Part shown: positions 26,535 to 42,103 of the stretch, in pieces | Numbering within the stretch: the first letter of the stretch is position 1 | Layout: the number at the start of each line of letters is the position of its first letter | Source: Paracoccaceae bacterium | Lineage (GTDB): Bacteria > Pseudomonadota > Alphaproteobacteria > Rhodobacterales > Rhodobacteraceae | Length of the DNA: 50,640 bases | Direction: 5' to 3' | Assembly (NCBI GenBank): GCA_027484915.1 | Contig: JAIXSA010000051.1 | Location: 1 to 50,640, forward strand | Notes under the pieces: generated by a model | Seen by the model: the letters and a program-made list of their open reading frames with translations, nothing else | What the model was told of the DNA's origin: nothing | Database searches by the model: none | Program-made: the position numbers and the translations under genes

Positions 26535-27537
26535 GACGCAGCCTCGGGTTCAGGACGGTGTAAAGCAGGTCCACGATCAGGTTCACCCCGGTGAAGATCA
26601 CCGCGAACAGGATCACGATGCCTTGGATCAGCGGCAGGTCGCGGTTGATCACCGCATCGATGGCCATGTTGCCAAGGCCCTCGTAAGAAAACAGCCGCTC
26701 GATGATCACCGTCCCGCCGATCAGGAAGGTGAACTGCACCCCCACCAGCGTCAGCGTCGGCAGGGCGGCGTTGCGCAGCGCCTCGCGCAGGATCACCCGC
26801 GTCTCGCCATAGCCCTTGGTGCGGGCGAGCGTCACGTAATCCAGGTTCACCGTCTCTTTCAGGCTCTGCTTCAGAAGCTGCCCGATGATCGCCGCAAGCG
26901 GGATCGCCAAAGCGAGCGCCGGCATGAACATATGCGCGACGATGTCGGCCCAGAGGTCAAAGCGCAGGCGGATCAGGCTTTCGAAAAGGTAGAAATTCGT
27001 GGTGAACGGCAGCTCCAGGCTGGGTGTCACCCGGCCCGAGATGTGGAAGACCGGCATCAGCACCCCGAACAGCAGGATCAGCACCAGCCCCCACAGGAAA
27101 TCCGGCACCGAGAGGGCCATGCCGTTCGCCACGTCAATCGCGCCCTCGGTCCGGCCACCGCGAAACCGCGTCCCGGTCAGCGCCGCCGCCCCGCCCAGGA
27201 TCATCGCCATGATTAGCGCCATGATCGACAGCTCCAGCGTCGCGGGCAGGCGGCCAAGGACTAGGTCCAGTACCGGCTGGCGCGTGGTGATCGAGGTGCC
27301 GAAGTCGCCCTGTATGACTCCCGCGACCCAGATGCCGAACTGCGTCAGCAAGGGCTTGTCGAGGCCGTACAGCGCCGAAAGCCGGGCGATGTCGTCCTCG
27401 GTCGCGCCGGGGGGCAGCATCATGGCGATGGGGTTGCCTGGGACGACCCGGATCACGAAGAACACGATCACGGCGACACCGGCCAGGGTAATGGCGGTGG
27501 TGGCAAGCCGCGTAAAAAGAAGTCTCAGTACCTGCAC
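26527..27537 (-). CDS. Peptide/nickel-type ABC transporter permease (DppB-like)
   Basis: The 336-residue membrane protein has the DppB hallmarks: FFVIRVVPGNPIAMMLPPGA near the N-terminus, YGLDKPLLTQFGIWV, and the EAA loop NLDYVTLARTKGYGETRVILREALRNAALP. It should form the translocation pore with the DppC-like subunit. It is separated from the upstream binding-protein gene by a 128-nt gap with strong hairpins, suggesting lower expression than the binding protein. Confidence 0.9.
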   Translation of the reverse strand: MQVLRLLFTRLATTAITLAGVAVIVFFVIRVVPGNPIAMMLPPGATEDDIARLSALYGLDKPLLTQFGIWVAGVIQGDFGTSITTRQPVLDLVLGRLPATLELSIMALIMAMILGGAAALTGTRFRGGRTEGAIDVANGMALSVPDFLWGLVLILLFGVLMPVFHISGRVTPSLELPFTTNFYLFESLIRLRFDLWADIVAHMFMPALALAIPLAAIIGQLLKQSLKETVNLDYVTLARTKGYGETRVILREALRNAALPTLTLVGVQFTFLIGGTVIIERLFSYEGLGNMAIDAVINRDLPLIQGIVILFAVIFTGVNLIVDLLYTVLNPRLRHG

Positions 27538-27665: not shown

Positions 27666-29189
27666 TTACGCGCGCTTCATCAGATGCGGCAACAGTGCCC
27701 CGCTTGCATGCGGCGTCACGACCACGCCGGGGGCGTGCAGGATCGGCTGGACATACTGCAGCAGCGGGATCACCAGCGCATTCTCGGCGATGTACTTGTC
27801 CACCGCCTTCCAGCCCTCGATCCGCTTGGCCTCGTCCGCCTCGCCCCACAGCGGGCCGATCATGTTGATCAGGTCCTCACCATCCCAGACCGAGTGCGGG
27901 CTGGGGCCAAACATCGCGAAGCCGGTCGAGGTCGTCGGGTCGCCCACCGAGTTGCCCCAGTTGTAGAACGCCGCAGGGGCCAGTTGGTCGGCCGCGCGCA
28001 GTTCATAGTGCTTGGCGATCTCGTAGACCTCGATCTCGGCCTCGATCCCGACCTTGCGCCACAGGCCGACAATGGCCTGGATCATCTCATAGTCCTTGGG
28101 CTTGAAGCCCTTGGTGGTCTGGATCTTGAACTTGACCGGGTTTTCCGGGCTGTAGCCCGAGGCCGCCAGCAGCTCGATAGCCTTCGCCTCGTCGTAGGGC
28201 ACGGTGATCGAGGCGTCATAGGCGCTGTATTCCGGCGTCTGCAGCGTGTCGATCTTGACGCCATAGCCCGACAGCAAGCGGTTGATGATCGCCTGCTTGT
28301 CGATGGCATGGGCGGCGGCCTTGCGGACGTTGGGGTCGGTCATCACCTCGATGTCGTTCAGGAAGATCATCCCGATGTCGCTGATCGGCGCGGCGACCCC
28401 CGTCAGCGGGCCACCCTTCAGACGGTCGTATTCCTCATACGGCATCTCCAGCGTGACGTGGGAGTTCCCGGATTCCACCTCGGCCACCCGGGCGGCGGCG
28501 TCGGGGACGAACTTGATCGTCACGGTGTCGAAGTCGGGTTTGCCGCCCCAGTAGTTGGCGTTGGCCTTCAGCCGCACGAAGGCGTTGCGCTCGAACTTCT
28601 CGACCATGTAGGGGCCGGTGCCGATGGGCGCGGCCTCGAAGCCCTCGGCCCCGACCTTCTCGAAATAGGCCTTGGGCAAGACGTAGCCGGTCAGGAAGTA
28701 CATCCACTTGAAGATCGTCGGGTCGAACTGCTTGACGTCGGCGGTGACGGTGTTGCCGTCCACCGCGAAGTTCGCCAGCGTCCCCCAGACGAAGTTGATC
28801 GGGTTGCCCGTCGCCGGGTCGGCGGCACGGGCCAGCGACCAGGCCACGTCCTCGGCGGTGAAGGGGCTGCCGTCGTGCCAGGTCACGCCCTCGCGCACCT
28901 TCATGACGACCTTGGTCCGGTCCTCGTTCCAGCCCCATTCGGTCAGAAGGCCGGGTGCGGGCGACAGGTCCGGTTGCTGCAGGATGTACTGGTCGAAGAC
29001 CGACTGATACAGCCCCTGGATCGTCGGGTTCACCGCGCTGGGGCCGACGGTCGGGTCCCACGAGGGCAGGTTGACGTTGTAGGCGATGACCAGCTCTTCG
29101 ATCCCTTGGGCAAAGCTGGGCAGGCCGACGGTTCCCGCCGCGAAGGTTGCGGCAGAGAGCTTCAGAAGGCTCCGGCGGTTGAGGTTCAT
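27666..29189 (-). CDS. Peptide/nickel-type ABC transporter substrate-binding protein
   Basis: The 507-residue precursor has a twin-arginine-like signal (NRRSLLKLSAATFAAG) and the long SBP_bac_5 fold used for peptides, opines, glycosides or nickel chelates. Family segments include VREGVTWHDGSPFTAEDVAWSLARAADP, PIGTGPYMVEKFERNAFVRLKAN and the hinge region DPNVRKAAAHAIDKQAIINRLLSG. The start at 29189 follows an AGGGAA site. The substrate is unknown, but co-orientation with a PYROXD2-type flavoprotein and divergence from a catabolic operon suggest the pathway substrate. Confidence 0.9.
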   Translation of the reverse strand: MNLNRRSLLKLSAATFAAGTVGLPSFAQGIEELVIAYNVNLPSWDPTVGPSAVNPTIQGLYQSVFDQYILQQPDLSPAPGLLTEWGWNEDRTKVVMKVREGVTWHDGSPFTAEDVAWSLARAADPATGNPINFVWGTLANFAVDGNTVTADVKQFDPTIFKWMYFLTGYVLPKAYFEKVGAEGFEAAPIGTGPYMVEKFERNAFVRLKANANYWGGKPDFDTVTIKFVPDAAARVAEVESGNSHVTLEMPYEEYDRLKGGPLTGVAAPISDIGMIFLNDIEVMTDPNVRKAAAHAIDKQAIINRLLSGYGVKIDTLQTPEYSAYDASITVPYDEAKAIELLAASGYSPENPVKFKIQTTKGFKPKDYEMIQAIVGLWRKVGIEAEIEVYEIAKHYELRAADQLAPAAFYNWGNSVGDPTTSTGFAMFGPSPHSVWDGEDLINMIGPLWGEADEAKRIEGWKAVDKYIAENALVIPLLQYVQPILHAPGVVVTPHASGALLPHLMKRA

Positions 29190-29227: not shown

Positions 29228-30796
29228 TCAGTTTCCGGCAAGCTTTCTGGCCAGAAGGTATCCGGGTCCCGCCCCCGTGCCTGCGCCGGGCCAGACGGCC
29301 GCGCCGGTCAGATGCAGGTTGGTGACGGGCGTGCTGCCGTCGGCATGGCCCCGCGCGGGGCGGAACAGGAAATGCTGCGACAGATGGTGACTGCCGCAGA
29401 CCTGGTCGCCGCCGACAAGGTTGGGGTTGTCCGCCTCCAGCTCGACCGGGGTCACGATGCGGCGGCCCAGGATCTTCGCCCGCGTGCCGGGGGCATGGGC
29501 CTCCAGGATGGACAGCGCGCGGTCGGCGAAGGCATCGGCGGCCTGGGTCCAGTCCGTGGCCGCAATCTCGCCCTTGGAGTCGCCCGCAATGGTGCCGGGG
29601 GCCATTCGGACCTGCACCCACAGGGTGTGCTTCCCTTCGGGTGCGCGGCTGGCATCGAACACTGTCGGTTGCCCCACCACCAGAATCGGCTCGTCCGGCA
29701 AAAGACCCGCCTGCGCCTGGGCATAGGTGCGCGCCATCTGGTCCAGGCTGGGTGCCAGGTGCACATAGGCATAGCGCTGCAACGCCGCGCCCGCGCGCCA
29801 GTCGGGCAAGCCGTCCAGCGCCAGATGGATCATCATCGTCCCCGGCGCATGGCGGAAGCCGTCCATCGAACGGTCGAAGGTCGGCGTGGTGTCCCCCACC
29901 AGTTTGCGCAATCCCTTCGGCGAGGTCCCGGCGATCACCGCACGGCCGGCCTTGACGATGCGTCCGTCGGCCAGCTCGACGCCGGTGGCCCGCCCACCCT
30001 CACGCAGGATGCGGTCAACCGGCGCCCCAGTCTGGACCACACCGCCGCGCGCGGTGATCGCCGCGACAAGCGCCTTGACCACCGTATCCGCGCCACCCTT
30101 TCCGATCACCATCCCGAAGGCCTGGCCCGCCATCCCCTCCAGGTAGGGAAACATCGCGCCCCCGGCGACATCTGGGGCGAAGTCCAGGTGCATCCCCCAG
30201 GCCCCCAGCAGCGCGCGGATGTGCGGGTGCTGGAACGTCTCCTCCAACCATGCCCGGGGCGAAGAGATCAGAAACCGCCCCATGTCCAGCGTTCCTGCCA
30301 TCCCCTTGGCGCGCAACGTTTTGAACATGAAATATGCAAGCGCACGGAGTTTCATCTCGGACCCGAGAAGGCCGAAAAGGTGCGGGGCCTCCGCCCCGAA
30401 TCGGCTGGTCAGATCCGTCCAGGTCCCTGCGTCCTTCGGCGACAGCGCCCGGAACGCGGTTAGCGTCTCGTCGCCCACGGTTGAGACACCCGCCCAGCTT
30501 CCATCCGGAAAGGACGAGGAAAACGGGCGATCCACCGGCACGAACTCGCAGCCATGCCGACCCAGTTCCGCGCCATAAGCCTTGAAAAAAGGGCTTCCGG
30601 CGAAAAGAGATAGGTTCATCGCCGCCCAGTCGTGGCGGAAACCGGGCAACGTGTAGTCCCCCGTCTTCACCGCCCCGCCTGCCGTCGCGGCCTGCTCGAA
30701 CACGCCAACCTTCCAGCCCTTCGCGGCCAGATGCAGCGCGGCGGCCAACGTGTTGTGGCCCGCCCCGATCAGGACTGCATCGAAGGTCTCGGCCAT
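29228..30796 (-). CDS. PYROXD2/phytoene-desaturase-like FAD oxidoreductase, paralogue 1
   Basis: The 522-residue flavoprotein opens with an FAD Rossmann motif (AVLIGAGHNTLAAALHLAAKGWKVGVFEQ), continues with ATAGGAVKTGDYTLPGFRHDWAAMN, has a central MVIGKGGADTVVKALVAAITARGG, and ends with the second FAD segment NLHLTGAAVWPGAGTGAGPGYLLARKL. This is the CrtI-like/PYROXD2 superfamily of desaturases, isomerases and oxidases. It lies 38 nt before the binding-protein gene on the same strand and is divergent from an operon encoding its own paralogue. Carotenoid genes are absent, so a desaturase role in pigments is unlikely. Confidence 0.82.
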   Translation of the reverse strand: MAETFDAVLIGAGHNTLAAALHLAAKGWKVGVFEQAATAGGAVKTGDYTLPGFRHDWAAMNLSLFAGSPFFKAYGAELGRHGCEFVPVDRPFSSSFPDGSWAGVSTVGDETLTAFRALSPKDAGTWTDLTSRFGAEAPHLFGLLGSEMKLRALAYFMFKTLRAKGMAGTLDMGRFLISSPRAWLEETFQHPHIRALLGAWGMHLDFAPDVAGGAMFPYLEGMAGQAFGMVIGKGGADTVVKALVAAITARGGVVQTGAPVDRILREGGRATGVELADGRIVKAGRAVIAGTSPKGLRKLVGDTTPTFDRSMDGFRHAPGTMMIHLALDGLPDWRAGAALQRYAYVHLAPSLDQMARTYAQAQAGLLPDEPILVVGQPTVFDASRAPEGKHTLWVQVRMAPGTIAGDSKGEIAATDWTQAADAFADRALSILEAHAPGTRAKILGRRIVTPVELEADNPNLVGGDQVCGSHHLSQHFLFRPARGHADGSTPVTNLHLTGAAVWPGAGTGAGPGYLLARKLAGN

Positions 30797-30822
30797 GCTT
30801 CCCCCGCCCGACTGACGCAGGG

Positions 30823-30844
30823 ATATTTGCAAATGCATTTAAAT
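30823..30844. promoter_or_regulatory. Overlapping palindromes in the divergent promoter region (candidate MarR operator)
   Basis: Within 22 nt three palindromes overlap: ATTTGCAAAT (30825-30834), AAATGCATTT (30831-30840) and ATTTAAAT (30837-30844). The AT-rich block is isolated in GC-rich surroundings, in the 129-bp gap between the minus-strand importer operon and the plus-strand cyclase operon that encodes a MarR protein. TTGCAA at 30828 and TAGCAT at 30850 could form a plus-strand promoter with a 16-nt spacer. Confidence 0.5.
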
Positions 30845-30925
30845 CTGTCTAGCATGATTCCAAGACGACCGGGACAGCACCCGGCATGGGCTTGCCGGAC
30901 GGGTCCGGCCAACAGGGAGAGTGTG

Positions 30926-31717
30926 ATGACTTCAGCAAACGTGCTGCAATCCTTGGCGGGGATGCTCGCCTCGGGCGGGATTACGGTAGTGGACTGCTCG
31001 GGCGTGCTTGGCCCGGAAACGCCGCTTCTGAAGCTGCCGCCGGATTTCGCCAAGGACACCCCGCCGATCAAGATCCACCGGATCAGCGAGTACGACAAGG
31101 ACGGTCCGTTCTGGGCCTGGAACTGGCTGGAGCTTGGCGAACACTCGGGCACCCACTTCGACGCGCCGCACCACTGGATCACCGGCAAGGACTATGCCGA
31201 CGGTTACACCGACACGCTGGACGTGCAGCGCCTGGTGGCCCCGGTGAACGTGCTGGACTTCAGCGCCGAATGTGGCGCCAACCCCGACTTCCTTCTGACC
31301 ATCGACCACGTGAAGGCGTGGGAGGCCAAGCACGGCGCCATCGGCAAGGGCGAGTGGGTCGTGCTGCGGTCCGACTGGGACAAGCGCGCGCATGATGAAA
31401 ACCTGTTCCTGAACGCGAACGAGACCGGGCCGCATACGCCGGGACCGACCGCCGAAGTGATCGACTACCTGATCAGCAAGGGCATCGTCGGTTGGGGCAG
31501 CCAGTGCATCGGCACCGATGCGGGCCAGGCGGGCGGCATGACCCCGCCGTTCCCAGCGCACAACCTTCTGCACAAGAACAACTGCTTCGGTCTGGCTTCG
31601 CTTGCCAATCTCGACAAGCTGCCCGCCAAGGGCGCGATCCTGATTGCCGCGCCGCTGAAGATCAAGCAGGGCACCGGCTCGCCCATCCGGGCGCTGGCGC
31701 TGGTGCCGAAGTCGTAA
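30926..31717 (+). CDS. Cyclase family metal-dependent hydrolase (kynurenine formamidase-like)
   Basis: The 263-residue protein has the metal-binding signature of the cyclase/KynB family, HSGTHFDAPHHW, and a second conserved stretch WGSQCIGTDAGQAGG. KynB hydrolyses N-formylkynurenine; other relatives open cyclic imides or isatin. The substrate is not determined by sequence. The start at 30926 follows an AGGGAGA site. It heads a tight operon: the next gene begins 1 nt after its stop. Confidence 0.82.
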   Translation: MTSANVLQSLAGMLASGGITVVDCSGVLGPETPLLKLPPDFAKDTPPIKIHRISEYDKDGPFWAWNWLELGEHSGTHFDAPHHWITGKDYADGYTDTLDVQRLVAPVNVLDFSAECGANPDFLLTIDHVKAWEAKHGAIGKGEWVVLRSDWDKRAHDENLFLNANETGPHTPGPTAEVIDYLISKGIVGWGSQCIGTDAGQAGGMTPPFPAHNLLHKNNCFGLASLANLDKLPAKGAILIAAPLKIKQGTGSPIRALALVPKS

Positions 31718-31718
31718 G

Positions 31719-33284
31719 ATGCGGCCCGATCACGTCATCATCGGCAGCGGGATCAACGCGCTGGTCGCCGGGGCGATGCTTGCCCTGAAAGGCGACCGCG
31801 TGCTGCTATTGGAACGCGAGGCCGTCCCCGGCGGCTGCCTTCGCACCGAGGAGATCACGCTTCCCGGTTTCAAGCATGACGTGATGGCCGCGACCTGGGT
31901 CCTGTTCATGACCTCACCGGCGGGGGCCGCGCTTGGCCCCCACCTCGCGCGGCACGGCTTTGACTACTGCCATACGCCGCACCCGACCGCCGTGTTGCGG
32001 CCCGACGGGCAGGCGCTGGTGCTGACCACCGAACGCGCGAAGAACGTCGCCGCGTTCAACGCCCTGGCGGCAGGCGACGGTGATGCCCATGCCCGCGACG
32101 TCGGCGGTATCGAAGCCGACGCGCCGTTCCTCTTCGCGCTTCTCGGCGGCGCGCTCTGGTCCTGGCCCACGGCGAAGCTCCTCTGGGGTCAGGTCCGCAA
32201 GCGCGGCCTTCGTGGCCTTGCCGCGTGGTTCGGCCGCGCCCTCGTCCCTGCGCGGGGCTGGCTGGAAACGACCTACAGCTCTCCCACCGTCCAGGCACTG
32301 TACGCGCCTTGGGTCCTGCACTGCGGCCTGACGCCCGAGTCGACTTACTCCGGCCAGATGGGCAAGGTCATAGCCTTTGCCTTGGAGGCTGCGGGCGCGC
32401 CCATCGTCAAGGGTGGCTCCGGTGCCGCCGTCGCCGCCTTCAAGGCCCTGATCGAGGAGAAGGGCGGCGAAATCCGCTGCAACGCCGACGTTGACCGCAT
32501 CCTGGTGAAGGACGGCAAGGTCCGCGGCGTGGTACTTGCGAGCGGCGAGGAAATCCCCTGCCCGTCCGTCCTCGCCTCCGTCGCGCCCGGCCAGTTGCAG
32601 GACCGTCTGCTGCGCGACGTGAACCTGCCCGAGGACAAGGCCGCCGCGAAAACCTTCCGGCATGGACGCGGCAACTTCCAGCTGCACTATGCGCTCGACC
32701 GGCACCCCGAATGGCTGTCCCCCGGCCTCGACGACGTGGCACTGATCCACCTTGCCGACGGGATCGACTCCGTCTCGAAGGCCTCGAACGAGGCCGAACG
32801 CGGGATGCTCCCCGCCACGCCGACGATCTGCGTCGGCCAGCCGCACCGCCTCGACCCCTCACGCTGCCCAGAGGGCAAGGCGATCCTCTGGCTCCAGATC
32901 CCAGACGCGCCCCGCGCGGTGAAAGGCGACGCCGCAGGCGAATTCTCCACCGATGGCACCTGGTCCGACACCACCCGCGAAGCGTTCGCCGACCGCATCG
33001 AAGCGATCCTGAAACGCCACATCAAGGACTTCGACGCCATCAAGCTTTCCCGCCGCGCCTATTCCCCTGCGGATCTCGAACGGATGAACATCAACCTCGT
33101 CGGTGGCGACCCATACGGCGGGCTTTGCACCATCGACCAGTTCTTCATCTTCCGCCCCTACGCCCATTCGACCAACGGCACCAACCTTGTGCGCGGCTTT
33201 ACCCACATCGGCGCATCAACCCACCCCGGCCCCGGCCTGGGCGGCGGTTCGGGCTTTCTCGCGGCGAAAAGGCTTGGCGCATGA
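31719..33284 (+). CDS. PYROXD2/phytoene-desaturase-like FAD oxidoreductase, paralogue 2
   Basis: The 521-residue flavoprotein has the FAD motif HVIIGSGINALVAGAMLALKG, then PGGCLRTEEITLPGFKHDVMAATW, a middle GGSGAAVAAFKALIEEKGG, and the C-terminal FTHIGASTHPGPGLGGGSGFLAAKRL. It is co-linear with paralogue 1 at 29228-30796 but clearly diverged; both end with an FIFRP/FLFRP segment before the second FAD motif. The two may work as a heteromer or on successive substrates. The MarR gene overlaps its stop by 4 nt. Confidence 0.82.
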   Translation: MRPDHVIIGSGINALVAGAMLALKGDRVLLLEREAVPGGCLRTEEITLPGFKHDVMAATWVLFMTSPAGAALGPHLARHGFDYCHTPHPTAVLRPDGQALVLTTERAKNVAAFNALAAGDGDAHARDVGGIEADAPFLFALLGGALWSWPTAKLLWGQVRKRGLRGLAAWFGRALVPARGWLETTYSSPTVQALYAPWVLHCGLTPESTYSGQMGKVIAFALEAAGAPIVKGGSGAAVAAFKALIEEKGGEIRCNADVDRILVKDGKVRGVVLASGEEIPCPSVLASVAPGQLQDRLLRDVNLPEDKAAAKTFRHGRGNFQLHYALDRHPEWLSPGLDDVALIHLADGIDSVSKASNEAERGMLPATPTICVGQPHRLDPSRCPEGKAILWLQIPDAPRAVKGDAAGEFSTDGTWSDTTREAFADRIEAILKRHIKDFDAIKLSRRAYSPADLERMNINLVGGDPYGGLCTIDQFFIFRPYAHSTNGTNLVRGFTHIGASTHPGPGLGGGSGFLAAKRLGA

Positions 33285-33769
33285 CAGACCAGTCGCCCCC
33301 GGAAAAGCCGCCCGAGACCCTGCCGCAGCTGGGCGAGATCGGCCTGACCAACTACGCGCCCTACCTGATGAACCGCATCATGGGCCGCTACAACGCCTCG
33401 CTTCGGGACGAGATGGCAGAGCTTGGCCTGACCACCCCGAAGATGCGCGCGCTGGCGGTCCTGTCGGTGATCGAAGGCCCGCTGATCCGCGAACTCGCAG
33501 TCTATTCCGTCGTCGAACAATCCACCCTCTCGCGCGCCTTGGACCAGCTTGCCGCCGAAGGGCTGATCCGCCGCGAATCCGACGCCGCTGACAGCCGCGC
33601 CACCCGGATTTTCATCACCGAGGCCGGGCGCGCCCGCTTCCAGACCCTCTGGCCCCGCATGGCCGAGGCGCACGACCGCATGTTCCGCGGCGTCCCCGCC
33701 GACGAGCGCCGCGCCTTTGTCGGGACGCTACAGAAGATGCTGACCAACATCCGCAAGCACGAGATCTGA
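33281..33769 (+). CDS. MarR-family transcriptional regulator
   Basis: The 162-residue protein has the MarR winged helix: GLTTPKMRALAVLSVIEGPLIRELAVYSVVEQSTLSRALDQLAAEGLIRRESDAADSRATRIFITEAG includes the recognition helix (EQSTLSRALDQLA) and the wing (DSRATRI). MarR proteins are usually released from DNA by phenolic or aromatic ligands. Its place in the middle of the operon suggests autoregulation and control of the divergent 30797-30925 region. The start is ATGA-coupled to the flavoprotein gene. Confidence 0.9.
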   Translation: MTDQSPPEKPPETLPQLGEIGLTNYAPYLMNRIMGRYNASLRDEMAELGLTTPKMRALAVLSVIEGPLIRELAVYSVVEQSTLSRALDQLAAEGLIRRESDAADSRATRIFITEAGRARFQTLWPRMAEAHDRMFRGVPADERRAFVGTLQKMLTNIRKHEI

Positions 33770-33770
33770 G

Positions 33771-35918
33771 ATGGCCGAACGTTCCTTCAAGGCCGAAGTC
33801 GAGCACCTGCGCAAAGGCGAAGGCGACACCTTCACCGGCGAGGGCATCCTCGCCATCACCAAAGCTCTGCTGGAAAACGGCGTCGGTTATGTCGGCGGCT
33901 ACCAGGGCGCGCCGATTTCCCACCTGATGGACGTGCTGGCTGACGCCGAGGACCTGATGGCCGAGCTTGGCATCCGGTTCGAGGCCAACGCGAACGAGGC
34001 CGCGGCCGCGGCGATGCTGGCGGCTTCAGTCCATTACCCGATCCGGGGGGCAGTTACCTTCAAAGGCTCCGTAGGCGTCAACGTCGCGTCGGACGCGCTG
34101 GCGAACCTTGCGTCTTCGGGGGTGAACGGCGGTGCCCTGATCATTGTGGGCGAGGACTACGGCGAAGGTTCCAGCATCATGCAGGAACGCAGCCACGCCT
34201 TCGCGATGAAGTCGCAGTTCTGGCTTTTGGACCCGCGCCCGAACCTGCCCTGCATCACCAAGGCCGTGCAGGACGGCTTTGAACTTTCCGAGGCCTCGAA
34301 CACCCCCGTCATGCTGATGGTCCGCATCCGGTCCTGCCATGTCACCGGCAGCTTCCAGACCCGCGACAACCAGCGCCCCAAACTTTCGGTCAAGGACGCC
34401 CTGTCGAACCCGCAGTCCGACTTCGCCCGCGTCGTCCTGCCGCCGATGTCCTTTGCCCACGAGCAGGACAAGATCAAGAACCGCTGGCCCAACGCCGAGA
34501 AATTCATCCGCGACCGGCAGCTGAACGAGGTCTTCGGGCCGAAGACCGCCCCCGTCGGCATTGTCCTGCAAGGCGGAATGTACAACGGCGTCATCCGCGC
34601 CTTGCAGCGGCTGGGGCTGGCGGACATCTGGGGCAACACCGAGGTTCCCCTCTACGTCCTGAACGTCACCTACCCGCTCCTCTCCTCCGAGTTCCTCGAC
34701 TTCTGCGAGGGCAAAGACCAGGTCCTGGTGATCGAGGAAGGCCAGCCCGAGTTCATCGAACAGCAGCTTTCCACCTTCCTCTACCGAGCCGGATCGCAGG
34801 TCAAACTGCGCGGCAAGGGCATCCTGCCGATGGCCGGGGAATACACCGGGCAGGTCATGCTGGACGGGATCACCGCCTTCCTCAAGGAAGCCGCACCGCA
34901 GATGCTCCCCGCCCTCGTCCGCGCGCCGAACGAGGACAAGCCGCAGATCCCGGACCTGACCAAGACCGTCCCGATCCGCCCCCCCGGCTTTTGCACCGGC
35001 TGCCCCGAACGTCCGATCTTCGCCGCGATGAAGCTGGTGCAGAAGGAAACCGGCAAGCTCCAGATTTCCGCCGACATCGGCTGCCACCTCTTCGGCTCGC
35101 TCCCCCCGTTCGAGATCGGGGGTGCCACGATGGGCTACGGCCTTGGCCCCGCCGCCAACGCGGCCTTCGACGGGGGCGGGGAACGCCGCCCGGTCTCGAT
35201 CATCGGCGACGGCGGGTTCTGGCATAACGGCCTGTCCTCCAGCTTCACCAACATGGCCTTCAACAAGTCCGACGGCGTGGCGGTGATCGTCGACAACTAT
35301 TACTCCGCCGCGACGGGGGGGCAGGACATCATGTCCTCCCGCGCCGACAACCCGACCAAGGCGACGAAGCACCCGATCACCAAGGCGCTGAAGGGCATCG
35401 GCATCGACTGGGTGCGGCAGGTCGACCGGACCTACGATGTCGGCCACATGCGCGACGTGTTGCGTGAGGCGCTGACCACCGACGCCCCCGGCCCCAAGGT
35501 CATCGTCGCCTCGTCCGAATGCATGCTGAACAAGCAGCGCCGGGAAAAGCCCCTGGCCGCAAAGGCCATCAAGGAAGGCCGCCGGGTCGAGGCCCCCCGC
35601 TTCGGCGTCGACGAAGACGTCTGCACCGGCGACCACGCCTGCATCCGCCTGTCCGGCTGCCCCTCCCTGTCGCTTAAGAAACTCGACGACCCCCTGCGCG
35701 ACGACCCCGTGGCCTCGATCGACCAATCCTGCGTAGGTTGCGGCAACTGCGGCGAGGTGGCGGACGCCGCCGTCCTTTGCCCGTCCTTCTACCGCGCCGA
35801 CGTGGTCCACAACCCATCGAAATGGGAGGTCCGCATGGCCGCCTTCCGCTCCAAGGTGATCGGCTGGCTCCAATCCCGCCGCGCCGCGCGCCGTCTCAGC
35901 TTCGAAGGCCCCGCATGA
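33771..35918 (+). CDS. Indolepyruvate:ferredoxin oxidoreductase alpha-type subunit (IorA-like)
   Basis: The 715-residue protein oxidatively decarboxylates 2-oxo acids, in this family aryl-pyruvates, to acyl-CoA with ferredoxin as acceptor. It has an N-terminal pyrimidine-binding domain (YVGGYQGAPISHLMDVL), a thiamine-diphosphate motif (SIIGDGGFWHNGLSSSFTNMAFNKSDGVAVIVDN), FCTGCPERP, and C-terminal cysteine clusters (CTGDHACIRLSGC and CVGCGNC..C) for Fe-S binding. The first cluster is spaced irregularly compared with a classical ferredoxin. The IorB gene overlaps its stop by 4 nt. Confidence 0.88.
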   Translation: MAERSFKAEVEHLRKGEGDTFTGEGILAITKALLENGVGYVGGYQGAPISHLMDVLADAEDLMAELGIRFEANANEAAAAAMLAASVHYPIRGAVTFKGSVGVNVASDALANLASSGVNGGALIIVGEDYGEGSSIMQERSHAFAMKSQFWLLDPRPNLPCITKAVQDGFELSEASNTPVMLMVRIRSCHVTGSFQTRDNQRPKLSVKDALSNPQSDFARVVLPPMSFAHEQDKIKNRWPNAEKFIRDRQLNEVFGPKTAPVGIVLQGGMYNGVIRALQRLGLADIWGNTEVPLYVLNVTYPLLSSEFLDFCEGKDQVLVIEEGQPEFIEQQLSTFLYRAGSQVKLRGKGILPMAGEYTGQVMLDGITAFLKEAAPQMLPALVRAPNEDKPQIPDLTKTVPIRPPGFCTGCPERPIFAAMKLVQKETGKLQISADIGCHLFGSLPPFEIGGATMGYGLGPAANAAFDGGGERRPVSIIGDGGFWHNGLSSSFTNMAFNKSDGVAVIVDNYYSAATGGQDIMSSRADNPTKATKHPITKALKGIGIDWVRQVDRTYDVGHMRDVLREALTTDAPGPKVIVASSECMLNKQRREKPLAAKAIKEGRRVEAPRFGVDEDVCTGDHACIRLSGCPSLSLKKLDDPLRDDPVASIDQSCVGCGNCGEVADAAVLCPSFYRADVVHNPSKWEVRMAAFRSKVIGWLQSRRAARRLSFEGPA

Positions 35919-37477
35919 CCCTGCACGAAACCATCGGCTCGGAACTCGGGGCCAAACAGGCTGACCCGCGCCTGTCCGGCATCATCAAACTCGCGATCCT
36001 CGCCGTCGGCGGCCAGGGTGGCGGCGTCCTCACCGGCTGGATCGAGGACGTCGCCCGCTCGCAAGGCTATGCCGCACAGGCGACCAGCGTCGCAGGCGTC
36101 TCGCAGCGCACCGGGGCCACGGTCTACTACGTCGAGATGGCCCCGCAGAACCCGGGCGAGCCGGTCCCGGTCTTCTCGCTCATGCCCGCGCCCGGCGACG
36201 TGGACATCATGATCACCGCCGAGATGATGGAGGCCGGCCGCTCCATCATCCGCGGCTTCGTCACGCCGGACCGGACCACGCTCATCACCTCGACCCACCG
36301 CGCGCTGGCGGTGTCGGAAAAGATGGTCCCCGGCGACGGCATTGCCTCGTCCGACGAAGTGATGGCCGCCGCCGAAATTGCCGCCCGCCGCGTCATCGCC
36401 GCCGACTTCGACGCGCTGGCGATCCGGAACGGCTCCGTCATCTCCGCCTCCCTCTTCGGCGCACTCGCCGGGGCAGCCGTCCTCCCCTTCCCGCGTGAAG
36501 CCTTCGAGGCCGCGATCAAGGCAGGCGGCAAGGGAACCGAAGCCTCGCTGAAGGCCTTCGCCGCCGCCTTCGACGTGGCCGCCAACCCCGCGCCCGAAGC
36601 CGCTCCAGCGGCGCAGGCGAAGCTTGAACCAAAGGTTCAAGGCCCCGCCCGACTGATGGCCGAATGGGACCGCCTCACCGCCCGCGTCGCCGCCCTCCCG
36701 GTCACGGTCTCGGAACTTGCGCTCCCCGGCCTTCGCAAGGTCGTGGACTTCCAAGACCTGCGCTACGGTTCCGAGTACCTCGACCGACTGTCCAACGTCA
36801 TGGCAAAGGACGACGCCGCCCACGGCTGGGTCCTGTCGCGTGAGGCCGCGAAATACATCGCCAATGCGATGGCCTATGACGACATCATCCGCGTCGCCGA
36901 CCTCAAGACCCGCGCCCGCCGCTTTGACCGCATCCGCACGGAAATGCGGGTGAAAGACGCCAACGTCCTGCAACTGACCGAATTCTTCCACCCCCGCGCG
37001 CAAGAGATCGTCGGCATGTTCCCCGCCCGCCTCGGCGCGAAGGTGGAGGCCGACCCGAAATGGATGGCCCGCCTGACCCGCTGGTTCGACAAAGGCCGCC
37101 GGTTGCGCACTGACAGCCTGCCCGCCTTCCTCACCCTCCATATCCTCAGCGGGATGAAAGGCTGGCGCCGCCGCACCCTGCGCCACGCGCAGGAACAGGC
37201 GCACCTCACCCACTGGCTGGACACCGCGCTTGCGGAAATCCCCCGCAACTACGCCCTGGCGGTCGAGCTGATCCGCTGCCGCCGCCTGATCAAGGGCTAC
37301 TCCGACACCCATGTCCGCGGCTATGCGAAATTCGACCGCGTGCTTGCCGCCACCGCCCGGATTGCCACCCGCGACGACGCCGCCGACTGGTGCCGCCGCC
37401 TGCGCGACGCCGCCCTGCAGGACGAAGAGGGGAAGGCGTTGGACGGTGCGATCCGGACCATCGACAGCTTCACCTGA
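35915..37477 (+). CDS. Indolepyruvate oxidoreductase beta-type subunit fused to a long C-terminal domain (IorB-like)
   Basis: The 520-residue protein has an N-terminal gamma/beta-type oxidoreductase domain (ILAVGGQGGGVLTGWIEDVARSQGY, SQRTGATVYYVEM) of about 200 residues, followed by an alanine-rich linker and about 250 residues of helical sequence (AAKYIANAMAYDDIIRVADLKTRARRFDRIRTEM and later GMKGWRRRTLRHAQEQAHL) matching the extension seen in large aerobic IorB proteins (DUF6537, recalled). The role of the extension is unknown. It completes the 2-oxo-acid oxidoreductase with IorA. Confidence 0.86.
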   Translation: MTLHETIGSELGAKQADPRLSGIIKLAILAVGGQGGGVLTGWIEDVARSQGYAAQATSVAGVSQRTGATVYYVEMAPQNPGEPVPVFSLMPAPGDVDIMITAEMMEAGRSIIRGFVTPDRTTLITSTHRALAVSEKMVPGDGIASSDEVMAAAEIAARRVIAADFDALAIRNGSVISASLFGALAGAAVLPFPREAFEAAIKAGGKGTEASLKAFAAAFDVAANPAPEAAPAAQAKLEPKVQGPARLMAEWDRLTARVAALPVTVSELALPGLRKVVDFQDLRYGSEYLDRLSNVMAKDDAAHGWVLSREAAKYIANAMAYDDIIRVADLKTRARRFDRIRTEMRVKDANVLQLTEFFHPRAQEIVGMFPARLGAKVEADPKWMARLTRWFDKGRRLRTDSLPAFLTLHILSGMKGWRRRTLRHAQEQAHLTHWLDTALAEIPRNYALAVELIRCRRLIKGYSDTHVRGYAKFDRVLAATARIATRDDAADWCRRLRDAALQDEEGKALDGAIRTIDSFT

Positions 37478-37525: not shown

Positions 37526-38020
37526 TTACTCCGCCAGCGCCCGATATCCGCCGTTCCAGTAGACCAGCGCCCCGGCCCCGGGAGTAACCCGGACCGCCCG
37601 CACCCGGCCGATCAGAATCGTATGCGTTGCCCGGTCGATCATCTCTTCCACCGTGCAGTCAAACGCCGCCGGGGCCCCCGCCAGCAGCCGCGCGCCGGTG
37701 ACCGCGGTCTCCCACGCGGCCCCCTCATACCGCGCCGCACCCTTCACTCCGCCGAAGCCCGAGAACCGCTCGGCCACCGCCTGATGCGCGGCCCCGAGCG
37801 ACGACCATCCGAACCGGCCGTACTTCACCAGCAACGGATGCGCCGAGGCGGTGCGGTTCACGCAGGCCAGCAGCAAGGGCGGCTCCGCCGACAGCGAGAT
37901 GGCCGAAGTCACGACCAGGCCCGAGGCTTCGTCGCCGTCGCCCACGGTCAGGATGCTGCAATTGCCCACGAAGGCCCGCATCGCATCGCGGAACTCTTTC
38001 CCGGTCGGTTCTTCGGCCAT
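37526..38020 (-). CDS. Flavin reductase (HpaC/RutF-like)
   Basis: The 164-residue protein belongs to the FMN-binding flavin reductase family: FRDAMRAFVGNCSILTVGDGDEASGLVVTSAISLSAEPPLLLACVNRTASAHPLL covers the flavin site, and GRVRAVRVTPGAGALVYWNGGYRAL the C-terminal strand. It should reduce FMN or FAD with NAD(P)H for a partner monooxygenase. The LLM-class monooxygenase lies immediately upstream with a 9-nt gap, so the two form a two-component system. Confidence 0.88.
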   Translation of the reverse strand: MAEEPTGKEFRDAMRAFVGNCSILTVGDGDEASGLVVTSAISLSAEPPLLLACVNRTASAHPLLVKYGRFGWSSLGAAHQAVAERFSGFGGVKGAARYEGAAWETAVTGARLLAGAPAAFDCTVEEMIDRATHTILIGRVRAVRVTPGAGALVYWNGGYRALAE

Positions 38021-38029
38021 CGTCTTCCC

Positions 38030-39121
38030 TTACCTGATCCCGGCCGCAGCCAGCTTCGGCAGCACCGTATCGCGGAAGTACGGGAATTCCTCGACATAGT
38101 CGACGAAGGACAGCGTCGTGCCCGCAAAGCCCGTCGCGTGCAACTTCAGGATGCCTTCTGCAACCTGGTCCGGCTTGCCGATCAGCGGAAAACCCCCGTG
38201 GCCCAGCGCGAAGAGGTGCTTGATCTGCGCCAGAAGGTCATGCGGGAAACTGTGCGCATGGGCGAACTGCAGGCGGACGAGGTTGTCCACGGCATCGGTG
38301 TCCGCGTTCTGCACCGCCGTGTAATCCGCATAGGCCTTCGCCTCCGCCTCGGTCGGGCGGCAGATCACGTGACTGAAGGTGAGCACGTTCACGTCCCGCC
38401 CCTTGGCCCTGGCCTGCGCCTTCAGCTCGGCGATCTCCACCTTCGACCGCTCCAGATCGATGGCTGGGGTGAACAGGAAGTTGGCGTTGTCCGTCGCGAA
38501 CTCGCGGCCTTGGGGCGAGCCCGCCGCGTTGATGATCGGCACCGTCCCGCGCAGGGGCTTCGGGTCGCCCTTCACCCGCTTGGCTTTGAAGTACTTGCCA
38601 TCCCAGTCGAAATGTTCATCCGAGGTCCACAGCTTCTGGATCAGGTCGTACCATTCCTGCGCATAGGCATAGCGCGTCTCGTGGTCGTCCGGCAGCGTCA
38701 GGCCCAGCGCCTCGTATTCCGGCTTGTTCCAGCCCGCCACGATGTTCAGCCCCGCGCGGCCGTGGCTGATGTGGTCGATGGTCGCCATCTGCTTGGCCAC
38801 CACCACGGGATGGTTGGCCGCCGTGTGGATCGTGGCGAAGACCGCGATGTTCTTCGTTGCGGCCAGCAGGCCGGCGGCCCAGGTCATCGTCTCCAGCACG
38901 CCGCCGTGGAAATCCGTCTCGCCGCCGTAGCCGATCCAGCGCGCAATCGGCAGCATGAAGTCGATCCCGGCCTCGTCCAGCATCTTGGCGAGTTTCAGGT
39001 TGTTGTCCCAGCTGTTGACCCAGCGCTCCGGCGCCTTGGTGGGGGTCATCCCCGAAGAGCAGTTGGTGGAAAAAGTGCCCAGGCGAAAGCGATCGCCCGA
39101 GAGCATCGGGTGTTGCGGCAT
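38030..39121 (-). CDS. LLM-class flavin-dependent monooxygenase (RutA/SsuD-like)
   Basis: The 363-residue protein has the bacterial luciferase-like barrel with AATKNIAVFATIHTAANHPVVVAKQMATIDHISHGRAGLNIVAGWNKPEYEALG, the flavin and phosphate-binding core of RutA/SsuD/DszA-type oxygenases. These use reduced flavin and oxygen to cleave C-N, C-S or similar bonds. The substrate is unknown. The start at 39121 follows an AGGGAAG site. It is followed by a flavin reductase and is divergent from a winged-helix regulator. Confidence 0.88.
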   Translation of the reverse strand: MPQHPMLSGDRFRLGTFSTNCSSGMTPTKAPERWVNSWDNNLKLAKMLDEAGIDFMLPIARWIGYGGETDFHGGVLETMTWAAGLLAATKNIAVFATIHTAANHPVVVAKQMATIDHISHGRAGLNIVAGWNKPEYEALGLTLPDDHETRYAYAQEWYDLIQKLWTSDEHFDWDGKYFKAKRVKGDPKPLRGTVPIINAAGSPQGREFATDNANFLFTPAIDLERSKVEIAELKAQARAKGRDVNVLTFSHVICRPTEAEAKAYADYTAVQNADTDAVDNLVRLQFAHAHSFPHDLLAQIKHLFALGHGGFPLIGKPDQVAEGILKLHATGFAGTTLSFVDYVEEFPYFRDTVLPKLAAAGIR

Positions 39122-39235: not shown

Positions 39236-39790
39236 ATGTCCAGGAAATCTGAAGGAAATCCGAAGGATGGGCCGCAAAGGGGCCTTGACTGGCATTGGCA
39301 CCTCGCCGAAGGCCCGGTCGAGGTCGACACGACCGAACTGGAATTCGCACTGATGCGCACGTTCGAGGGATTCGGCCGCTGGCAGTCCGAATGCCTCGCC
39401 TCGGTCTGCGATCTGGCGGCGACGGGGCCGGAGAATGCGCTTTTGCACATCATCCGGATGAACGACCGTCCCAAGACGATCAAGGACCTCGCCCGGCTGA
39501 CCAACCGCGATGACGTGCCGAACATCCAGTATTCCTTGCGCAAGCTGATCGGCGCGGGCCTTGTCTTGCGCAAGGGCGCAGGGCGGTCCGGCGTGACCTA
39601 TGAGGTGACCGACGAAGGCCGCCGCGTCACCGACGACTATGGCGCAGTGCGGCGGCGGCTTCTGATCCAGGCGGTCACCAGCGTCCCCGGCTTCTCGGAC
39701 CGGCTGGCGGATGCGACACGGACGCTGAACCTTCTCTCGGGCATCTACGAAGAAATCTCCCGCGTCGCCGCCACCCATCGGCGTGGCTAG
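39236..39790 (+). CDS. Winged-helix (MarR-type) transcriptional regulator
   Basis: The 184-residue protein carries a winged-helix core: LHIIRMNDRPKTIKDLARLTNRDDVPNIQYSLRKLIGAGLVLRKGAGRSGVTYEVTDEGRRVTDDY. This fits the MarR superfamily, with an N-terminal extension containing HWHLAEGPVEVDTTELEFALMRTFEGF. It is divergent from the LLM monooxygenase across a 114-bp gap with an AT-rich stretch including TTTTA and TAAAA arms (about 39151-39178), a likely operator. The start at 39236 follows a GGAAGGGG site. Confidence 0.8.
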   Translation: MSRKSEGNPKDGPQRGLDWHWHLAEGPVEVDTTELEFALMRTFEGFGRWQSECLASVCDLAATGPENALLHIIRMNDRPKTIKDLARLTNRDDVPNIQYSLRKLIGAGLVLRKGAGRSGVTYEVTDEGRRVTDDYGAVRRRLLIQAVTSVPGFSDRLADATRTLNLLSGIYEEISRVAATHRRG

Positions 39791-39808: not shown

Positions 39809-41320
39809 TCAGGCAAGCGCGGTCCTGCCCACTGCGCCCTTTGGCCGGTCCAGACGCTTGTGCAACTCCTCCGCCACCCGGGCATAGCGCCCCGGCTTGA
39901 CCGGCATCTGCCATTCGATGAACCGCTGCATCCCGCCGATCCCCAGCCCCATGTCGTCCAGCAGTTCGTCGATCTGGTGCATCGAGAACGGGATGATGTT
40001 CGTCCCCCGCGCATGCTTGCCCTCGGTCCGTGCCTCCATCCAGCGCAAGCGGGCGTCGGTCGCGGCGATCTGGTCGCGCTCGGGCGGCAGCGCCAGCGCC
40101 TTACCCAGCAGCGCCGCGATCCACAACGCGCCCATTTCCGCCGACAGGGGCGAGAAGAAGGAAGAGTTGTAGCCGTTGAACGCAAGGTTCTTCACGCCCG
40201 TCGGCAGGATACAGCGGTAAAGCCGGAAGTTGCCCCGGTCGTCCATGATCCGCGCCTGCAGGTCCGCGTCCAGGAACGGCACCTCCTGCCGCCAGCCCGT
40301 GCCGCAGATCACGATGTCGGCCGGGATCTTCTCGCCGGTCTTCAGCAGCGCAAAGCGCCGCCCGCCTTCGACGATCAGCTGGTCGATGGCCGTATCCCGC
40401 TTGATCGCGATCCGCCCCTTGCCGACCAGATCGAAGAAGCCGTCGGTCACCAGACTGACGGTCGACCGCGCGATCCTCTCGAACGACCCCCGCGGCAGGG
40501 CACCCAGCTTCTTCAGCTTCAGCTGCTTGGTGATGACCGACTGCACCGACCCCAGCATCGAATTGCGCACCGGCTTGCCCGCGCCGTGCAGAAACTTCTC
40601 GACCCCCTGCAGCCGGATATAGGGGAACAGCCCCTCGCCCATCCGGGTCAGGAACAGGTACTTGTAGTTCAGGACCCCGGCGAGCTTCTTCGGCATCTTC
40701 CAGATCAGCTCGCGCGCCACGACAGTCATGCTGGCCGCCGCATCGACCAGCCCCACGGCCACATCGCAGGACGACTTGCCGTAGCCGATCACCACGACAT
40801 GCCTGCCCCTTGCCTGCTCGAGGCCCAGGAACTCGGACGAATGGCAGATCGTGCCGCCCGCCGCCTTGAACTCTGCCGCGCCGGGGAAGTCGGGGACAGC
40901 GGGGGCCGAGAAGATGCCGTTGCAGATCGTCAGGAAATCGAATGTCTCCGACTGCTCCAGCTGACCCTTCGGCTGGAAGGTCACCGTCCAGCGCCCGTCC
41001 GACCCTTGCGCGGCGTGAGTGACAGGGGTGGACAGCCGGATCAGCGGCTTCAGCCGGAACTGGTCGGCATAATCGTTGAGATACTCTTGCACCTGCTGGC
41101 CGCTGGGCCATTCCGGATAGTGCTTCGGCATCGGAAGGTCCGAGAGGCAATAGGTGTCCTTGCTGTTCTGCGTGCTGACGCCGGGGTAAAGCCGCGTCGT
41201 GCTCCAGACCCCGCCGACGTCATGGACCTTCTCGAAGACGGTCACGTCATGGCCAAAGTCGCGCAGATGGCGGGCGGTGGTCAGGCCGGCGAAACCAGCC
41301 CCGATGATGGCGATCTTCAT
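39809..41320 (-). CDS. Flavin-containing monooxygenase (FMO/Baeyer-Villiger type)
   Basis: The 503-residue protein has an FAD motif (IAIIGAGFAGLTTARHL), an NADPH motif (VVVIGYGKSSCDVA), and between them an FMO-like fingerprint F..AGGTICHSSEF. Such enzymes insert one oxygen atom into N, S or carbonyl substrates using NADPH. The fingerprint departs from the exact BVMO pattern, so N- or S-oxygenation is as likely as Baeyer-Villiger oxidation. It lies 15 nt after the SDR gene on the same strand. Confidence 0.85.
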   Translation of the reverse strand: MKIAIIGAGFAGLTTARHLRDFGHDVTVFEKVHDVGGVWSTTRLYPGVSTQNSKDTYCLSDLPMPKHYPEWPSGQQVQEYLNDYADQFRLKPLIRLSTPVTHAAQGSDGRWTVTFQPKGQLEQSETFDFLTICNGIFSAPAVPDFPGAAEFKAAGGTICHSSEFLGLEQARGRHVVVIGYGKSSCDVAVGLVDAAASMTVVARELIWKMPKKLAGVLNYKYLFLTRMGEGLFPYIRLQGVEKFLHGAGKPVRNSMLGSVQSVITKQLKLKKLGALPRGSFERIARSTVSLVTDGFFDLVGKGRIAIKRDTAIDQLIVEGGRRFALLKTGEKIPADIVICGTGWRQEVPFLDADLQARIMDDRGNFRLYRCILPTGVKNLAFNGYNSSFFSPLSAEMGALWIAALLGKALALPPERDQIAATDARLRWMEARTEGKHARGTNIIPFSMHQIDELLDDMGLGIGGMQRFIEWQMPVKPGRYARVAEELHKRLDRPKGAVGRTALA

Positions 41321-41335: not shown

Positions 41336-42103
41336 TCAGGACATCAGCAGGGGAATGGCAGGCTCGGCCCGTTCCGGCCCCATCGCGGTATAGCCGCCGT
41401 CGACGCGGATATCGGTGCCGGTGATGAAGCTGGCCTCGTCCGAACACAGGAACAGCACCGCCGAAGCGACCTCTTCCGGGTTCGCCACACGGCCCAGCAG
41501 ATGGAAGGGTGCCGCCACGCTGTCGGTCTTGGCGCGATTGCCGTGGGTCAGCTGGTCCATGATGTTCGACCAGGTCCAGCCGGGGCTGACCGCGTTCACC
41601 CTGATGCCCTTCGGTGCCAGGTCCATCGCCTGATTGCGCGTCAGTTGCAGGATCGCGGCCTTCGACACCGGGTAAAGCCAGCGCCCCGTCTGCGCCACCC
41701 GCGACGAGATTGACCCGAAATTGACGATGGCCCCACGGTTCTTCGCCAGCTCCTCCTCCGCCGCCTGCATCAGCATGACCGAGCCCACGACGTTCACATC
41801 CAGGCTCTCCAGCCACTCGACGCGCGTCGAGGCCGCGCCGTTGTCCAGATAGGAGCAGGCCACGTTGACCAGGAAATCGATCCGTCCGAAGCGGTCCTTC
41901 GTCGCCTGCACCAGCGCCGCGATCTGGGCATCGTCGCGCAGGTCGCAGGGCTGGAAACCCACCCCTTCCGCGAATCCCCCGCCCTCGGCGATGTCGGCCA
42001 CCATGACCTTGGTGCCCGCTGCCACGAAGGCATCGACCACCGCCCGCCCAATCTTGGTGCAGCCGCCCGGCACGATGGCCACCTTTCCCTCCAACCCGCG
42101 CAT
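41336..42103 (-). CDS. SDR family oxidoreductase with altered cofactor motifs
   Basis: The 255-residue short-chain dehydrogenase retains the catalytic serine (GSISSR) and YPVSK, and the C-terminal GTDIRVDGGYTAMGP. Two structural motifs deviate: the cofactor loop reads VPGGCTKIG instead of VTGG...G.G, and NNAG is replaced by NVAC. It probably still binds NAD(P) but may use it differently. It leads a two-gene operon with the monooxygenase, so it may make or remove the carbonyl substrate. An AGGAAGAGG site precedes the ATG. Confidence 0.83.
   Translation of the reverse strand: MRGLEGKVAIVPGGCTKIGRAVVDAFVAAGTKVMVADIAEGGGFAEGVGFQPCDLRDDAQIAALVQATKDRFGRIDFLVNVACSYLDNGAASTRVEWLESLDVNVVGSVMLMQAAEEELAKNRGAIVNFGSISSRVAQTGRWLYPVSKAAILQLTRNQAMDLAPKGIRVNAVSPGWTWSNIMDQLTHGNRAKTDSVAAPFHLLGRVANPEEVASAVLFLCSDEASFITGTDIRVDGGYTAMGPERAEPAIPLLMS

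Follow-up and report, generated by a model that had tools for sequence, protein, structure and literature searches.

A gene cluster of a Paracoccaceae bacterium that may degrade indole through isatin to a coenzyme A ester

Which compound is degraded by a cluster that places two CrtI-like flavoproteins beside a cyclase-family hydrolase (IsaH), a MarR regulator, both subunits of a 2-oxo-acid oxidoreductase (IorA and IorB) and a peptide-type importer? This question is raised by a 50,640-nucleotide stretch of DNA (the window; contig JAIXSA010000051.1) from a Paracoccaceae draft genome (GCA_027484915.1; 3.84 Mb in 173 contigs), the best named matches of the locus being Tabrizicola and other Rhodobacteraceae. 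The flavoprotein adjoining the importer is termed FlavA, and the one following IsaH is termed FlavB. An earlier note on this DNA had proposed an imported aromatic or heterocyclic acid, with aryl-pyruvates, kynurenine and opines among the compounds to be tried; our results point to the indole/isatin family instead. With a probability of roughly 0.6, the cluster catabolizes indole, and probably an imported, already oxidized indole, through isatin to a coenzyme A (CoA) ester. Homology, synteny, co-occurrence and a shared intergenic element were demonstrated, and we infer all reactions except the opening of isatin. Families were called with curated Pfam and NCBIfam models and their cut-offs, and with sequence matches to solved structures.

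Judging from its sequence, IsaH is an isatin hydrolase. With its start set to 30926 from the sequence (263 amino acids), it matched isatin hydrolase B of Labrenzia aggregata (4j0n, 4m8d) with 485 bits, 201 of 257 aligned residues (78%) being identical to 4j0n across almost its entire length. Scores were 267–276 bits for three other isatin hydrolase sequences and about 27 bits for kynurenine formamidases. Isatin hydrolase converts isatin to isatinate, which is followed at 368 nm, and manganese dependence is known for relatives of the enzyme (PMC6117287). The earlier label of a “KynB-like” cyclase did not hold, since the curated arylformamidase model TIGR03035 gave 32 bits against a cut-off of 223. 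These scores also bear on the possibility of a route in which an aryl-pyruvate, kynurenine or a similar aromatic acid is taken up, a KynB-like cyclase opens it and an oxidoreductase of the indolepyruvate type decarboxylates it. IsaH shares the Pfam Cyclase family with bacterial kynurenine formamidase, and IorB falls into the indolepyruvate oxidoreductase beta family (682 bits on the broad PRK08312 family, cut-off 348); against these stand the isatin hydrolase and arylformamidase results and the IorA score of 288 bits on the IOR_alpha equivalog model, whose cut-off is 651. We consider such a route highly improbable, and the kynurenine/KynB and aryl-pyruvate assignments were set aside in view of the curated cut-offs and the isatin hydrolase match. 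The same genome holds a second isatin hydrolase-like gene (G000:C138:13172-13957), 72% identical to the window copy.

The gene arrangement around IsaH is real and more than chance. In 80 loci fetched with the cyclase (E ≤ 1e-10, >30% of the query), IorA was found in 75, MarR in 74, IorB in 67, FlavA and FlavB in 66 each, the binding protein of the importer in 58, permease B in 54, permease C in 53 and each ATPase in 51. Several of these loci are short contigs, so that misses include truncation, and a few of the importer, reductase and short-chain dehydrogenase/reductase (SDR) counts are low-identity paralogs. Gene order is kept in relatives, a point on which the earlier proposal of a coherent system had depended. 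A minority of loci lack FlavA, FlavB and the adjoining importer and keep the cyclase, IorA, IorB and, in most cases, MarR (e.g., L045, L060, L075 and L078). At 6162–9762 of L045 and 6171–9759 of L078, three genes facing away resemble, judging from their translations, the large, small and flavin adenine dinucleotide (FAD) subunits of a molybdenum hydroxylase.

Co-occurrence was counted in a sample of 149 genomes of the family (one per genus by tally, this genome included), of which 18 carry FlavB. Isatin hydrolase was present in 18/18 genomes with FlavB versus 11/131 without it, and IorA in 18/18 versus 16/131. In 17 of the 18, FlavA is found on the contig of the cyclase and diverges from it; in G068 a contig end intervenes. 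IorA does not always adjoin the other genes and is on the far side in G014. Of 385 genomes sampled across the class, four had FlavB; all four also had FlavA, and two belong to other families. On a plasmid of a marine Paracoccaceae (L137), the genes run in one direction as cyclase, FlavB, MarR, lyase, IorA, IorB, FlavA and importer.

What would deliver isatin to this unit? Upper-pathway genes probably adjoin it at 39.8–43.2 kb, where the genes of a flavin-containing monooxygenase (FMO) and an SDR face that of an AraC-family regulator, in agreement with upper indole pathways in order and homology. In iif clusters, an oxygenase and an SDR lead from indole to 3-hydroxyindolin-2-one, or dioxindole (PMC6221969, PMC12538310). 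The window SDR is 78% identical to an Alloyangia SDR and 58% to an Azospirillum SDR, both beside styrene/indole monooxygenase genes. The window AraC is 42% and 39% identical to the AraC regulators facing the SDRs of Alloyangia pacifica (L087) and Azospirillum thermophilum (L084), respectively, and the window FMO shares about 56% identity with an FMO encoded between FlavB and SDR by Tsukamurella tyrosinosolvens (L139).

The order of genes in A. thermophilum L084 is AraC facing SDR, styrene/indole monooxygenase, flavin reductase, transporter, FlavB (60%) and cyclase (50%). In A. pacifica, an upper part (AraC facing SDR, styrene/indole monooxygenase and reductase), a middle part (a salicylyl-CoA 5-hydroxylase-type gene with SDR, thioesterases and RidA) and a lower part (cyclase (69%), FlavB (57%), MarR, IorA and IorB, plus importer genes) can be distinguished. 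The actinomycete T. tyrosinosolvens carries FMO, SDR, AraC, FlavB, cyclase, IorAB and a hydroxylase within 15 kb of a plasmid. Its first genes are FAH, cupin, thioesterase, ligase, hydroxylase (48% to the Alloyangia copy) and MFS, with nitrilase and cyclase (45%); further genes are IorA (58%) and IorB, then FlavB (40%), FMO and SDR (54%), and AraC (36%). FlavA and the importer were not in the 20 kb seen of this locus, and the Azospirillum (L084) and Tsukamurella plasmids each have one FlavA/B-like place.

Two unrelated oxygenases, FMO and StyA-type, occupy one slot. The window SDR was present in 6 of the 149 genomes (6/18 with FlavB, 0/131 without), and beside it stood a StyA-type oxygenase in four, an FMO ortholog in two, including this genome, and both in none. 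Seven other FMO matches in the sample were 35–38% identical and came from genomes without the SDR. Among 19 fetched loci with SDR, FMO or StyA-type genes, 18 hold FlavB and one is a short contig (the locus sets partly overlap); eight loci that lack FlavB and extend 10 kb or more downstream contain none of these genes. For the StyA-type protein of L110, the scores were 612 bits to the solved 7z4x, which we take to be an indole monooxygenase, and 119–129 bits to styrene monooxygenases.

FlavB would join the two parts. Because the iif oxygenase and SDR end at 3-hydroxyindolin-2-one, one oxidation is missing before IsaH, and we propose FlavB for this conversion of dioxindole to isatin; if FlavB works in this line, its context would make it a dioxindole-to-isatin oxidoreductase. 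FlavA and FlavB are 37% identical to each other, and records annotate such CrtI-like flavoproteins only as NAD(P)/FAD-dependent oxidoreductases. A carotenoid role was rejected, since FlavA and FlavB scored 180 and 143 bits on the CrtO model (cut-off 1000) and 134 and 84 bits on the crtI_fam model (cut-off 238). The AlphaFold model of FlavB, based on 26 close sequences, was too poor to use, with a mean predicted local distance difference test score of 60.3.

The importer, FlavA and FlavB might also serve the import of a non-indole compound, the isatin genes being a co-regulated neighbor and the FMO/SDR pair a third, independent unit. A Mesorhizobium locus (L085) with importer, FlavA and FlavB and no cyclase in view is consistent with this, as are Sulfitobacter indolifex, in which importer-FlavA-FlavB lies beside hydroxyproline-type genes and apart from the isatin genes, and the absence of the SDR from 12 of 18 FlavB genomes. 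It is nevertheless unlikely, because FlavB occurs without FlavA or importer in indole-type clusters of Azospirillum and Tsukamurella, all six SDR genomes have FlavB, and both Sulfitobacter halves hold the element described below. In the indole/isatin pathway, importer and FlavA would be a natural second entry, which was not seen in L084 and L139, where only indole-type genes accompany FlavB. The binding protein has 5u4o as its best solved relative (151 bits).

What would become of isatinate? Isatinate is 2-aminophenylglyoxylate, an aryl 2-oxo acid, and its oxidative decarboxylation with CoA would give 2-aminobenzoyl-CoA; phenylglyoxylate oxidoreductases provide the analogy for this reaction. 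IorAB more likely acts on isatinate than on aryl-pyruvates and would give 2-aminobenzoyl-CoA. No solved structure matched IorA in sequence at E ≤ 1e-5. The ester could be taken on by a hydroxylase-type protein, a fusion of flavin monooxygenase and Old Yellow Enzyme (OYE)-type parts, whose Alloyangia copy scored 1219 bits on NF006101 (cut-off 1078). This gene is present in 54 of the 149 genomes, 17/18 with FlavB and 37/131 without (one-sided Fisher 6.5e-8, kinship ignored), including 11 of the 12 FlavB genomes without the SDR. Five of the 17 (G034, G077, G104, G121 and G142) carry it on the FlavB contig at a distance of no more than 15 kb, and in Azospirillum L134 and Tsukamurella L139 it is found close to IorAB. 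In the window genome it is on a short other contig, together with genes read as SDR and MarR; the protein has 761 amino acids (about 760 in the class), with the flavin monooxygenase match at 1–358 and the OYE-type match at 394–744.

The neighbors of this gene in G077 are RidA, a gene resembling benzoate-CoA ligase (355 bits, cut-off 375), and genes of the enoyl-CoA hydratase, 3-hydroxyacyl-CoA dehydrogenase and acyl-CoA dehydrogenase types, and the run in G142 contains tryptophan 2,3-dioxygenase (413 bits, cut-off 391). In Azoarcus evansii, beta-oxidation follows the action of a 2-aminobenzoyl-CoA monooxygenase/reductase (PMC4539516), and G077 resembles this pathway in joining the fused gene with beta-oxidation-type, ligase-family and RidA genes. 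Unlike in A. evansii, the entry would be the decarboxylation of isatinate to a CoA ester, and not only adenosine triphosphate-dependent activation of anthranilate.

Our analysis revealed a conserved element between the divergent arms. The spacer between FlavA and the cyclase, and not a region between the two flavoproteins as had been noted earlier, measures 129 bases and holds GATATTTGCAAATGCATTTAAATCTGTCTAGCAT at 30822–30855, with two TGCA half-sites and a 2-base center inside the overlapping palindromes ATTTGCAAAT and AAATGCATTT. At least 24 of the 34 positions are kept in 77 of 80 distinct intergenic sequences (not in L129, L126 and L132), which came from 93 loci that are partly copies of each other. 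The core pattern occurs once in the window versus 0.01 expected, and a matrix built from the 77 element sequences also had a single match in the 50 kb window. We infer from the sequence that the element is a putative operator of MarR, a protein that matched 3cjn (195 bits) and 7kym (85 bits). Since MarR would act at an element between both arms, the importer and FlavA would belong to the same regulon, as a second entry.

The matrix was run on loci outside its training. In S. indolifex, the halves are 64 kb apart on one plasmid, importer-FlavA-FlavB (L088) and cyclase-MarR-IorA-IorB (L089), and each had one match above 8 bits: 34.8 bits in the FlavA-FlavB gap and 41.7 bits before the cyclase. 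No MarR gene is annotated in the 25 kb of the L088 locus. The element stands before the cyclase in four of seven loci without FlavA beside it (L009, L041, L045 and L078, not L060, L073 and L075); no match was obtained in L084–L087, L090, L128 or L129, and the stretches of L111 and L113 do not cover its position. A strict sigma-70-type promoter scan of 30700–31050 found nothing at 9 of 12 matches, and therefore the face-to-face hexamers seen by eye, TTGCAA-17-TAGCAT forward and TAGACA-17-AAATAT reverse, stay only a suggestion.

The lower half of the cluster resembles the iad loci of Variovorax and Bradyrhizobium, which have isatin and isatinate as intermediates, a cyclase-family hydrolase, IorAB (IadAB) and MarR control in common with the pathway proposed here (PMC9613470, PMC12633357). 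The cluster could be an ordinary iad-type indole-3-acetate locus, with IsaH, IorAB and MarR as the lower half and the flavoproteins as accessory. In favor of this, iorA and iorB are iad marker genes and iad loci have isatin and isatinic acid as intermediates (PMC9613470), 7kym, a relative of MarR, was deposited with that paper, and Azospirillum L134 combines IorAB with genes of the Rieske, ligase and hydroxylase kinds. On the other side, no Rieske dioxygenase (IadCDE), AMP ligase (IadF) or thiolase (IadG) is among the 20 genes called at 24.0–48.3 kb (six scanned with NCBIfam only, the rest of the genome not searched), the window having two CrtI-like flavoproteins and a peptide-type importer instead, and FlavB is accompanied by an oxygenase of the indole type and an SDR both in the window and in three other records. 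We regard an iad locus as quite improbable, and a plain one was rejected on the called genes, which do not include the iad upper half.

IadI is annotated as a kynurenine formamidase (PMC12633357) and may do the work of the window cyclase in iad loci. No cyclase, FlavB or SDR adjoined IorA in the IorA regions of Hydrogenophaga and Variovorax boronicumulans. A Burkholderia region without annotation was excluded from the comparison. The L134 run of A. thermophilum is iad-like, with IorAB, Rieske dioxygenase, ligase, SDR and a hydroxylase-type gene on plasmid unnamed3; the indole-type genes with FlavB and cyclase are on a different plasmid.

The pathway from indole through isatin would proceed as follows. 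FMO would epoxidize or hydroxylate indole, as its family and context suggest, and the SDR would oxidize the resulting diol to 3-hydroxyindolin-2-one. FlavB, placed by its context, would oxidize this to isatin, which IsaH, a close homolog of a characterized enzyme, would open to isatinate. IorAB would then oxidatively decarboxylate isatinate with CoA to 2-aminobenzoyl-CoA, and the fused enzyme on the other contig, of the 2-aminobenzoyl-CoA or salicylyl-CoA hydroxylase kind, would take the ester on. MarR would act at the single element between the divergent arms, and the AraC regulator would control the FMO/SDR pair. A further-reaching version is tentative and somewhat short of an even chance: FlavB would be a dedicated dioxindole-to-isatin enzyme and IorAB an isatinate:acceptor oxidoreductase yielding 2-aminobenzoyl-CoA, so that isatin would be a true intermediate in aerobes of two phyla, free anthranilate would not be needed, and FlavA with the importer would form a second oxidized-indole entry under the same MarR operator.

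Several results weigh against the indole/isatin pathway. The co-occurrence figures ignore phylogeny, with no kinship correction. The SDR is rarer than FlavB (6 versus 18 of 149 genomes), and the 12 FlavB genomes without an SDR ortholog, some of them incomplete drafts, thus show no sign of indole entry. FMO has only distant solved relatives (best 121 bits), and the matrix scan of the window found no copy of the element at the FMO/SDR pair. In G148, 186 kb of one contig separate IorA from FlavB, and in G102 the two genes are on different contigs. In Mesorhizobium L085 and Agrobacterium L086, FlavB is plasmid-borne and near genes for cupin, Ldh-type, RidA and FAH proteins, with no cyclase in the region seen, which speaks against FlavB being strictly tied to isatin; perhaps these relatives have another substrate. 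The NCBIfam name of the hydroxylase family is salicylyl-CoA 5-hydroxylase, not 2-aminobenzoyl-CoA. In Variovorax, the region iadC-K2 without iadA/iadB restored the formation of anthranilic acid, so that an IorAB-type enzyme is not needed there (PMC12633357).

Compared with known systems, the proposed upper half would have AraC, SDR and a flavin-dependent indole oxygenase in common with the iif, ind and WHOP (ipo-dho) clusters (PMC6221969, PMC12538310). The window SDR and AraC, compared with those of the relatives L084 and L087, match indole-type clusters by homology and order. The iif clusters have a two-component oxygenase, and the window has FMO instead. IifA has a SnoaL fold (PMC7225977), and no SnoaL family was named among the 20 genes called at 24.0–48.3 kb, six of which were scanned with NCBIfam alone. 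Unlike iif, the window continues with FlavB, isatin hydrolase and IorAB. By sequence comparison, iif-type indole and iad-type isatin metabolism would be joined here with FlavB as the link, both halves resembling known kinds and the combination apparently being new; no published cluster joining them in this way was found in the open-access literature, paywalled work lying outside the search. The earlier statement that no characterized pathway has this gene set stands insofar as no single characterized operon was found, and fails for the isatin hydrolase/IorAB/MarR set, which matches published iad loci.

This study also provides candidates for questions that a 2018 review lists as open, namely whether iif is the sole indole cluster, whether isatin is on the indole pathway, and which genes serve the later steps (PMC6221969). 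In the cluster there are candidate genes for making isatin, for opening its ring and for using isatinate, which is relevant to the dispute over the role of isatin in indole degradation (PMC6221969). For CrtI-like flavoproteins the cluster offers a candidate function, and for IadA/IadB of the auxin (iad) loci a hint at their possible role.

The coordinates are collected in Table 1. All genes named in the earlier note are present, and its five-gene importer is indeed co-oriented with FlavA on the minus strand, lying at 24009–29189 and thus outside the interval of 29228–37477 given for the system. The tight packing was likewise found, with 1-nucleotide gaps between cyclase and FlavB and between MarR and IorA, and ATGA overlaps between FlavB and MarR and between IorA and IorB. 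The end at 37477 was too early: the functional neighborhood probably extends to about 43.2 kb, and the upper-pathway genes at 39.8–43.2 kb had been missed. The outline of a coherent route, with ring-amide hydrolysis, flavin oxidation, decarboxylation of a 2-oxo acid to a CoA ester and its own importer, remains, with indole/isatin as the probable substrate family.

Table 1. Coordinates in the window of the genes and the intergenic element discussed in the text
Feature	Coordinates	Strand	Basis or remark
Importer ATPase 2 (Opp/Dpp type)	24009..24809	-	NCBIfam peptide/nickel ATPase models, below equivalog cut-offs
Importer ATPase 1	24802..25671	-	NCBIfam DppD/NikD-type models
Importer permease C	25668..26534	-	NCBIfam Opp/Nik/Dpp permease models
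Importer permease B, GTG start	26527..27537	-	NCBIfam Opp/Dpp permease models
Extracellular binding protein	27666..29189	-	Pfam SBP_bac_5, 251 bits
FlavA, CrtI-like flavoprotein adjoining importer	29228..30796	-	Pfam Amino_oxidase
Putative operator/promoter element	30822..30855	no strand	Between divergent arms
IsaH, isatin hydrolase (cyclase family), 263 amino acids	30926..31717	+	485 bits to 4j0n/4m8d
FlavB, CrtI-like flavoprotein	31719..33284	+	Proposed dioxindole-to-isatin oxidoreductase, role from context only
MarR regulator	33281..33769	+	Pfam MarR_2
IorA, 2-oxo-acid oxidoreductase thiamine pyrophosphate subunit	33771..35918	+	IOR_alpha 288 bits, below cut-off
IorB	35915..37477	+	Pfam POR + DUF6537; PRK08312 family
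Flavin reductase, accessory module	37526..38020	-	Pfam Flavin_Reduct
Luciferase-like monooxygenase, accessory module	38030..39121	-	Pfam Bac_luciferase
Winged-helix regulator facing luciferase-like gene	39236..39790	+	Pfam HTH_27
FMO-type monooxygenase, proposed indole oxygenase	39809..41320	-	Pfam FMO-like
SDR, proposed dioxindole (3-hydroxyindolin-2-one) former	41336..42103	-	SDRs of relatives
AraC-family regulator facing SDR	42270..43241	+	AndR model 168 bits, cut-off 350

Past the cluster, at 43238–48345, an agmatinase-family enzyme, a C13-peptidase-domain protein and a DAO/GcvT-type dehydrogenase are encoded, for which no link was found. The luciferase-like monooxygenase, flavin reductase and winged-helix regulator (37526–39790) sit between IorB and FMO. 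The luciferase-like protein scored 182 bits on SfnG and 160 bits on RutA, both below cut-off; its gene is near the cyclase in 28 of the 80 loci, and the winged-helix regulator in 25.

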